Shown here in pieces: positions 55 through 3,697 of a stretch of 64,000 nucleotides of DNA. The notes beneath the pieces are model-generated. The model saw only the letters and a list, made by a program, of their open reading frames with translations, ran no database searches and was not told the DNA's origin. This stretch comes from Lentilitoribacter sp. Alg239-R112 (GTDB lineage Bacteria > Pseudomonadota > Alphaproteobacteria > Rhizobiales > Rhizobiaceae). The position numbers and the translations under genes were made by a program. The first letter of the stretch is position 1, and the number at the start of each line of letters is the position of its first letter. Where the stretch lies: contig NZ_LS999833.1 of NCBI RefSeq assembly GCF_900537175.1, forward strand, positions 1,302,001 to 1,366,000. Reading direction: 5' to 3'.

Positions 55-198
55 ATGAACATTCGTAAATCATACAAGAACTGGCGCGATTACCGCAGGA
101 CAGTGAACGAATTAAATTCCCTGTCATCTCGTGACCTAAATGATCTAGGCATACAGCGTAGTGAAATCACTACAGTTGCTCGCGCAGTCGTTAAGTAA
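55..198 (+). CDS. DUF1127 small protein, host gene of cuckoo RNA array
   Basis: This 47-residue basic protein has the DUF1127 (YjiS-like) pattern: an aromatic and arginine-rich N-terminus (YKNWRDYRRTVNEL), then LSSRDLNDLGIQRSEI and a short tail. GAAGGA lies 8 bases before the ATG. In Rhodobacter sphaeroides the matching protein (RSP_6037, CcaF1) is an RNA-binding factor linked to sRNA maturation and RNA turnover, and its 3' UTR yields the CcsR sRNAs. Here the stop codon is likewise followed at once by hairpins with CCTCCTCCC loops, so the ORF and the RNAs are probably one transcript. The promoter is cut by the window edge, so RpoH control, known in Rhodobacter, cannot be tested. Family assignment is from sequence pattern. 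RNA binding here is inference. Confidence 0.85.
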   Translation: MNIRKSYKNWRDYRRTVNELNSLSSRDLNDLGIQRSEITTVARAVVK

Positions 199-203
199 TT
201 AAA

Positions 204-246
204 ATTTCGGATCGGTATTCTCCTCCCAATTGAGCCGGTTCGAATT
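204..246 (+). ncRNA. Cuckoo hairpin 1 (least regular)
   Basis: The arms at 204-216 and 234-246 pair over 12 positions with one T-T mismatch and three G-T wobbles. A short inner ATT/AAT helix presents CTCCTCCC (220-227). The motif lacks the first C of the full CCTCCTCCC. It begins six bases after the DUF1127 stop codon. Confidence 0.7.
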
Positions 247-278
247 AGCTGACATATTTCTTCCTCCCATGTCAGCTA
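246..278 (+). ncRNA. Cuckoo hairpin 2
   Basis: A perfect 9 bp stem, AGCTGACAT with ATGTCAGCT (247-255 and 269-277), closes a 13-base loop containing CTTCCTCCC. This is the only loop missing one CCT unit, so it is a shortened variant of the motif. Confidence 0.8.
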
Positions 279-280
279 TT

Positions 281-325
281 TGATAAAGCGCCCACCTATC
301 CTCCTCCCAAGGTGGGCGCTGATCA
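281..325 (+). ncRNA. Cuckoo hairpin 3
   Basis: A perfect 11 bp GC-rich stem, AGCGCCCACCT with AGGTGGGCGCT (287-297 and 310-320), closes the 12-base loop ATCCTCCTCCCA. A flanking TGAT/ATCA helix can extend it across a small internal loop. Confidence 0.88.
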
Positions 326-334
326 AAACATAGA

Positions 335-371
335 ATTCAAGCAGCACATCCTCCTCCCAGTGCTGCTGAAT
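335..371 (+). ncRNA. Cuckoo hairpin 4
   Basis: The 7 bp stem GCAGCAC with GTGCTGC (341-347 and 360-366) closes the same 12-base loop as hairpins 3 and 5. Outer TTC/GAA pairing extends it past a one-base bulge. Confidence 0.85.
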
Positions 372-375
372 AGAT

Positions 376-404
376 CGGCAAACATCCTCCTCCCAGTTTG
401 TCCG
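376..404 (+). ncRNA. Cuckoo hairpin 5
   Basis: GGCAAAC (377-383) pairs with GTTTGTC (396-402) through 7 pairs including one G-T wobble. The loop is the identical 12-base sequence ATCCTCCTCCCA. It has the weakest stem of the three identical-loop hairpins. Confidence 0.8.
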
Positions 405-414
405 TTCGAAATAG

Positions 415-459
415 ATAACACTCGCTGCACCTCCTCCCGCAGCGAGTGTTATTCTTTTT
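415..459 (+). terminator. Cuckoo hairpin 6, intrinsic terminator of the array
   Basis: A perfect 14 bp stem (415-428 with 439-452; core AACACTCGCTGC) closes the 10-base loop ACCTCCTCCC and is followed by TTCTTTTT. It therefore serves both as sixth motif-bearing hairpin and as Rho-independent terminator, isolating the unit from trmFO. Confidence 0.9.
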
Positions 460-3283: not shown

Positions 3284-3697
3284 TTAAACCACTATAAATG
3301 CTGCGCCTACGGCTCGCTGCTCCGCGAGCAGTACATTATATGTTCGAACCGCAGCTCCAGTGCTCATTGGATCACTCGAAATTGCGCGAGATTTAAACGC
3401 TTCTTTCAGCTCCAATGGTAACATTTTAATATCTAGCCCCGTACCTACGAGAAAAACCTCAAGATCAGAGGCTTCTCCCCAGACTTTGGAAAACAAGTTA
3501 GCGGTTAATTCAGTACCTTGCTCAACATTCCAGCCATAAATTCCAGATGGTAAGCATAACAACGAACCACGATGAGACATATCGGCAAAACGAAACCCAC
3601 CATTACCGTAGGCATCAATTGGCGCCCGCCCTGGAAAATGAGCCTCATTCATTTTAAGGCTCACATCGGGTATTTGCTGATCGCCAGCTTCACTCAC
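3284..3697 (-). CDS. Mth938-like (DUF498) protein, NDUFAF3-like
   Basis: The 137 residues match the Mth938-like fold: YGNGGFRFADMSHRGSLLCLPSGI, then the conserved FLVGTG segment and STGAAVRTYNVLLAE near the end. The family includes human NDUFAF3, an early complex I assembly factor. The start is GTG and overlaps the secDF stop as GTGA, indicating translational coupling. Bacterial members commonly sit with secDF and yajC, as here. A link to insertion or assembly of NADH dehydrogenase is established for the mitochondrial protein and inferred for this one. Confidence 0.88.
   Translation of the reverse strand: MSEAGDQQIPDVSLKMNEAHFPGRAPIDAYGNGGFRFADMSHRGSLLCLPSGIYGWNVEQGTELTANLFSKVWGEASDLEVFLVGTGLDIKMLPLELKEAFKSRAISSDPMSTGAAVRTYNVLLAEQRAVGAAFIVV

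Follow-up and report, generated by a model that had tools for sequence, protein, structure and literature searches.

The six tandem hairpins behind a small DUF1127 gene near the start of the window (the whole 64,000-nucleotide stretch analysed, bases 1302001-1366000 of contig C1 of a 3.9-Mb genome) most probably belong to a regulatory-RNA locus of the cuckoo/αr14 (CIN1) type, at a probability that we put at roughly 0.8. A single transcript from an LsrB-type promoter would carry the DUF1127 coding region and two fused αr14 units with anti-Shine–Dalgarno loops. The case is made at the level of sequence, from the six hairpins, two matches to the αr14 family, a 3+3 layout shared within the genus, base pairs that have changed on both sides, a missing U-tract after the third hairpin and a box upstream. 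An earlier, sequence-only reading had assigned the array to the cuckoo/CcsR type; that assignment appears to hold, as an αr14 ('CIN1') array with anti-Shine–Dalgarno loops and two matches to Rfam RF02344.

All features of the locus lie on the forward strand. An LsrB-type box, TGCACACAGCGCAT (genome C1:1301940), starts about 60 bases to the left of the window and is followed by a putative –10 element, CTATAT, at window positions -2 to 3, the window beginning within it. The presumed 5′ leader of the DUF1127-array transcript would occupy 1-54. The DUF1127 gene itself, at 55-198, encodes a protein of 47 amino acids (Pfam PF06568, E 2.1e-15) and is one of three DUF1127 matches in the genome; as at CcsR/CIN1 loci, it stands immediately 5′ of the array and in the same direction. 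The array sits between this gene and trmFO (GidA family; 527-1939, PF01134, E 4e-96).

The presence of six hairpins behind the DUF1127 gene was confirmed, over 206-454. Folding placed H1 at 206-244, with a loop containing TTCTCCTCCC, and H2 at 246-278, with a loop containing TTCTTCCTCCC. H3 (287-320), which has a strong stem (–20.9 kcal/mol) directly followed by GATCAAAA, H4 (340-367) and H5 (377-402) all present the loop ATCCTCCTCCCA, the three identical loops noticed earlier, and H6 (414-454, or 414-459 with its tail) has the loop ACCTCCTCCC, followed by TTCTTTTT at 452-459. H6 and this tail are likely to form an intrinsic terminator, as the sequence-only reading had also supposed from their appearance. 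AU-rich linkers join the hairpins. Folded as a whole, 199-460 has a minimum free energy of –103.4 kcal/mol, against a mean of –50.7 (sd 3.9) for dinucleotide shuffles, none of 200 of which reached the energy of the array (z = –13.5). On its own, H5 has the weakest stem (–4.9 kcal/mol).

TCCTCCC is found in each of the six loops, where its mean unpaired probability is predicted to be 0.94-1.0. The 64-kb window contains the heptamer nine times (3.2 expected), six of these places falling between 221 and 438. The claim that the loops share one motif stands for this core, but the full CCTCCTCCC is confined to the loops of H3-H6. Genome-wide, CCTCCTCCC occurs at 13 places, four of them within the array, and a reversed control pattern at 12; CCTCCTCCC with CCTCC 20-50 bases further on is found only at the array (three places). 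The array shows the marks of a cuckoo RNA, namely neighbouring hairpins that keep one loop motif while their stems are free to vary.

The Rfam αr14 covariance model covers the array twice, end to end, with both matches above the gathering threshold of 58.8 bits: the first unit (H1-H3, 202-324) scores 67.8 bits and the second (H4-H6, 331-454) 86.9 bits. Three hairpins, each with a CCUCCUCCC loop, characterize αr14; the second unit has them exactly, and the first carries shortened forms of the motif in H1 (CTCCTCCC) and H2 (TTCCTCCC). A search of the source genome with the Rfam model returned no further αr14 match beyond the array. Across 41 genomes, 32 have a match at E ≤ 0.001 and 25 a match over the cut-off, and all four genomes of the genus examined (our own and three others in this set) have the six-hairpin array in the same 3+3 layout. 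The array thus looks like two fused αr14/cuckoo units of the usual three hairpins. Two separate transcripts of about 120 nt, each with its own promoter and terminator, appear unlikely, because H3 has no U-tract and its core is separated from that of H4 by only 19 bases.

Each of the described relatives of this locus shares part of its organization. The αr14 RNA of Sinorhizobium meliloti (NfeR1/Smr14C2) likewise has three hairpins per unit, the CCUCCUCCC loop, variable stems and an LsrB-type box upstream, but it is a stand-alone gene of one unit, whereas here two units are fused behind a DUF1127 gene. In Rhodobacter sphaeroides, CcsR1-4 and CcaF1 ('CIN1') are reported to form a co-directional DUF1127 gene, run of hairpin RNAs and terminator, as here, although there are four RNAs rather than six hairpins, the DUF1127 protein has 71 amino acids rather than 47, and the promoter described is of the RpoHI/RpoHII type rather than preceded by an LsrB-type box. 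AbcR1 and AbcR2 (αr15) resemble the array in a loop with CCUCCCA, in transporter targets and in LsrB/VtlR control, but they have a different fold, and the αr15 match of our own genome stands beside a LysR gene. The abstract of the cuckoo RNA study reportedly speaks of two to four hairpins. The family (with the models SmelA075 and SmelA099), its modular hairpins, CCUCCUCCC loops and divergent stems are in print, as are variable module numbers, of which 2, 3 and 4 have been noted (PMC3927594), against six here and nine and about 12 in relatives; the link to DUF1127 is also reported (PMC10253847). No array of more than four hairpins was seen in the literature passages covered, which do not extend to the cuckoo study of 2015 or the CcsR/CcaF1 studies of 2015 and 2021.

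As trmFO is a conserved neighbour (TrmFO is 74-79% identical to its counterparts in Rhizobium, Phyllobacterium, Sinorhizobium and other relatives), it served to locate the corresponding locus elsewhere. These identities would place the genome at the level of the Rhizobiaceae. We surveyed named trmFO loci, taking the best 80 of at least 584, and scored occurrences of the motif within at most 4 kb upstream of the gene, with much less sequence available at a few loci. Arrays were found at 61 of these best 80 of at least 584 loci and none at the other 19. The 81 arrays that these loci yielded comprised 53 with three hairpins, ten with six and six with nine, together 69 multiples of three; the other 12 had two (four arrays), four (seven) or five (one), some of these counts including a motif without a hairpin (L037, L072 and L083). 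Arrays of six or nine stand at 16 of the best 80 of at least 584. The idea that six hairpins represent an exceptional expansion must therefore be abandoned: the number is six in all four genus genomes, and the comparison of copy number that had been suggested gives mostly three, also six and nine, and about 12 in one genome, G022. In that genome (C23:266663-267184, L028) four tandem αr14 matches, three over the cut-off, contain 12 hairpins by one count and 11 by a stricter one; several of these, in different units, share the same loop and flank, which looks like a young expansion. Four-hairpin arrays were also observed upstream of trmFO in the Brucella/Ochrobactrum records L056 (about 3350-3390) and L100.

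Stem likeness was compared by position in 22 arrays of six or nine hairpins (15 of the 16 from the trmFO survey and seven from other genomes). Hairpins that occupy corresponding slots in different triplets scored 18.1 on average (n = 102), against 4.8 for other pairs (n = 354), and were the more alike in 20 of the 22 arrays; the species are related, so that the arrays are not independent of each other. The nine-hairpin arrays, six in number, each gave a permutation p of 0.0025. For a single six-hairpin array the test has a floor of about 0.06; p lay at this floor (0.063) in eleven of the sixteen such arrays and between 0.125 and 1.0 in five. The two arrays of the 22 that depart from this pattern include our own: its position-matched stems score 4.2, against 5.8 for the others (p 1.0), and paralogy of its two units, sought in this way, was undetected. 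In the three congeners H1 and H4 score high against each other (15, 22 and 17), with p at the floor of 0.063 in every case. The description of the stems as unrelated to one another is thus apt for this array and fails in its relatives, where they are alike by position. Fused arrays, on this sequence comparison, would have arisen mostly by duplication of triplets; in the species of the window the traces appear to be gone or beyond detection, so that its own duplication is inferred from relatives that are not independent.

The fusion of units appears to have been accompanied by loss of the terminator between them. Taking the longest T-run near the end of the stem as a measure, a run of at least four was found at none of the 22 internal third (and sixth) hairpins of arrays of six and nine, compared with 40 of 79 array ends. 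When all internal hairpins are counted, three of 30 have such a run, and in these three cases (L037, L072 and L111) the array is a triplet with a stray motif after it. A coarser measure, at least four T in six bases, separates the two classes less well, being reached by 13 of the 24 internal hairpins and by 74 of the 80 terminal ones; by this measure the four genus genomes have 2, 3, 3 and 3 T after H3 and 5, 6, 6 and 6 after H6. At one S. meliloti locus (4H41, L040) the triplets are 161 bases apart and both have T-rich ends. Because internal third hairpins have no T-run, fused αr14 units are probably single RNAs.

Selection on the array could in principle be exerted for a role in cis, the hairpins being a long terminator or stabilizer of the DUF1127 mRNA, or sites at which the DUF1127 protein binds or directs processing, with pairing in trans secondary. 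A DUF1127 frame does precede the arrays at many loci by regular-expression search, the linkers are AU-rich, and CcaF1 of R. sphaeroides is reported to bind RNA and to help RNase E mature the CcsR RNAs (PMC10253847). Such a role would not need a near-invariant loop, yet most loops keep TCCTCCC while the stem pairs change on both sides. When our array was compared with that of genome G001, 40 of the 64 aligned stem pairs were unchanged, four differed on one side only and 20 differed on both sides while being paired in both sequences; broken pairs are uncounted because only pairs formed in the own fold of each sequence, at the offset of best identity, were compared. Six to seven of these 20 changes lie in H1, which may be misaligned. 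The corresponding numbers of both-side changes were 20 of 66 against G002 and 20 of 65 against G003. The loops of the genus keep TCCTCCC, with the exception of H4 of G002, in which one base is changed. Furthermore, the same regular-expression search found some αr14 triplets with no DUF1127 frame directly in front (for example L040), and NfeR1 mutated in its three loops is reported to lose silencing (PMC10746234). We therefore consider a mainly cis role unlikely. The same comparison speaks against the suggestion that only the loop and foldedness are under selection, as orthologous stems within the genus are still recognizable and carry both-side pair changes.

The promoter region bears on how the locus, read as a fused αr14 array, would be controlled. 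The sequence ahead of the DUF1127 gene has, in all four genus genomes, TGCA-N6-GCAT, a second element, ATTGC(A/G)CTGCACAAA (also written TTGC(A/G)CTGCACAA), and CTATAT, the distance from the start of the first to the last being 58 nt in our genome and 57 nt in the other three. TGCA-N6-GCAT is reported as the LsrB motif at the NfeR1 promoter (PMC10746234). Among arrays of at least three motifs at the best 80 of at least 584 trmFO loci, it precedes 23 of 58 first and eight of 18 second arrays, compared with 20 hits among 2310 random windows of 420 bases; the exact box is absent upstream of the other 35 of the 58 first arrays. At least ten of the 11 fixed bases of the second element are present in 48 of 76 array rows from the same best 80 of at least 584 loci, some rows sharing one element, and in none of 1520 background windows, which were taken from trmFO and downstream sequence and differ in composition from intergenic DNA. 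The published –35 element of NfeR1 (CTTAGAC) was not found in the loci of nine relatives searched.

A LysR gene, identified by Pfam, lies right after trxB in our genome, with the αr15/AbcR match behind it, the same trxB/LysR/AbcR neighbourhood as is described for Agrobacterium vtlR (PMC7486931). Both DUF1127 genes and AbcR2 are reported to be activated by VtlR in Brucella (PMC12595884). Inspection by eye showed one mismatch to the published VtlR box, GCAT-N3-TG-N3-T, at our promoter and, in L056, a match to the reverse complement of this box ahead of the DUF1127 gene. In our genome the LysR gene that follows trxB starts behind GGGAGGAG (genome C1:1726005-1726024; L142 1501-1520), an eight-base complement of the loops, and feedback on an LsrB/VtlR-like activator is accordingly possible.

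These elements also weigh on whether the locus is instead an RpoH-driven CcsR locus for heat and oxidative stress, with stress defence as its main role, as in R. sphaeroides and as the earlier comparison with CcsR1-4 implied. The gene order is the same (DUF1127, hairpin RNAs, terminator), a response of LsrB to reactive oxygen has been reported, and genes for a PDH E1-beta-like and a lipoyl-domain protein carry GGGAGGA, CcsR being reported to modulate the PDH complex. The conserved elements upstream, however, look LsrB- and sigma70-type, and inspection of the region upstream of the DUF1127 gene, by eye only, revealed no RpoH-type promoter; RpoH-driven stress defence as the main role is, in our estimation, distinctly improbable. 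That the hairpins are a degenerate repeat or chance structure is scarcely credible, its one point being that the two units are unlike by position in our genome, set against the shuffle z of –13.5, the two Rfam matches and a layout and pairing conserved through all four genus genomes, with both-side pair changes, which speak against a functionless reading.

For the αr14 reading, we propose that transcription would start slightly to the left of the window, at the sigma70-like promoter with the LsrB-type box, and that the same RNA would encode the 47-residue DUF1127 protein, read through both αr14 units and end at H6. Its 3′ part may then be cut into hairpin RNAs by an RNase E-type activity or act whole; the CcsR RNAs are reported to be cut by RNase E from the 3′ UTR of the DUF1127 mRNA, with the protein helping (PMC10253847; PMC8625941). 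The six UCCUCCC loops would pair with ribosome-binding sites of the GGGAGGA type and block translation, chiefly of mRNAs for nutrient uptake (solute-binding proteins). Redundant loops may raise dose or valency, as for NfeR1 of S. meliloti, in which the three loops reportedly act redundantly at ribosome-binding sites to silence target mRNAs (PMC10746234). From this RNA, by analogy, we take the most likely function to be anti-Shine–Dalgarno repression, mainly of transporter mRNAs.

In our genome GGGAGGA is enriched before ATG (68 v 7), more so than other seven-base Shine–Dalgarno-like patterns (AAGGAGG 28 v 21, AAGGAGA 90 v 40, AGGGAGA 37 v 18). As proof of αr14 targeting this enrichment had to be rejected, because similar ratios were found in four genomes judged to lack an αr14 match in the 41-genome search, with stricter filters (22 v 3, 31 v 7, 45 v 5 and 46 v 7). 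The 68 places include four double counts, leaving 64 distinct, one of which is the complementary strand of the array itself. ORFs of at least 50 amino acids open behind 45 of them; 21 of these belong to solute-binding protein families and 30 to transport families, counts outside which L129, L179 and L185 (signal-like start or no match) were kept. The 32 control ORFs were drawn in equal shares of 16 from two sources, 30 of the 90 AAGGAGA places and the 28 AAGGAGG places, and the 25 of their 36 families that are listed include four single-member solute-binding families, all placed in the AAGGAGG set by their first residues. With the controls so listed (25 of 36 families), the contrast in solute-binding proteins gave a Fisher p of 0.003 against both sets, 0.0005 against AAGGAGA and 0.15, not significant, against AAGGAGG alone. 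The loop motif is also shared by αr15/AbcR, which weakens the case for targeting by αr14 specifically. The LysR gene adjoining trxB is among the GGGAGGA-led ORFs. Two neighbouring PDH-type genes with GGGAGGA (C2:130551 and C2:131951; L180 and L181) encode the E1-beta-like and lipoyl-domain proteins, the former, truncated to 260 amino acids for the comparison, scoring 448.7 with the E1-beta model, whose cut-off is 454.

The window contains a second RNA of relevance, αr9 (Rfam RF02343, 55566-55713, forward strand), in which the block UGGGAGGA is the exact complement of the end of the αr14 loop, UCCUCCCA. This block, among the most conserved octamers of αr9, is present in 26 of the 27 RF02343 matches in the 41 genomes, the 27th being a weak second match in G036. 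Predicted duplexes of αr9 range from –14.6 to –18.4 kcal/mol with the six loops and reach –19.3 kcal/mol with our own αr15/AbcR; the αr9 site is about half paired in its predicted fold. An αr14 match (E ≤ 0.001) accompanies αr9 in each of the 26 genomes that have it, and six have αr14 without αr9, a co-occurrence that shared ancestry could explain. A fully conserved hairpin is reported in SmelC289, taken here as αr9 through the synonym smrC9, in a 2011 paper, in the sections covered of which no link to anti-Shine–Dalgarno loops was found; nor did the literature sections and passages covered describe a function for αr9. This RNA may be an antagonist of the αr14 loops. A tentative and rather doubtful extension is a three-RNA circuit, in which the LsrB/VtlR-like LysR protein encoded next to trxB would activate both AbcR and the RNA with six loops, these loops would act back on the LysR mRNA at GGGAGGAG, and αr9 would sponge the αr14 and AbcR loops through UGGGAGGA.

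The finding connects a DUF1127-plus-array locus with the LsrB/VtlR regulon, in which DUF1127 genes are reported targets; the literature passages covered hold no discussion of 3′ hairpin arrays of such genes. The apparent oddity of six unlike hairpins with one loop becomes a testable rule: arrays of the αr14 type would grow mostly by whole three-hairpin units, the internal triplets losing their terminator U-tracts. As internal terminators appear to be lost and the units to become one RNA, the dose of loops would be an evolvable quantity and, if the circuit were true, fusing triplets to six, nine or 12 loops would set its titration capacity.
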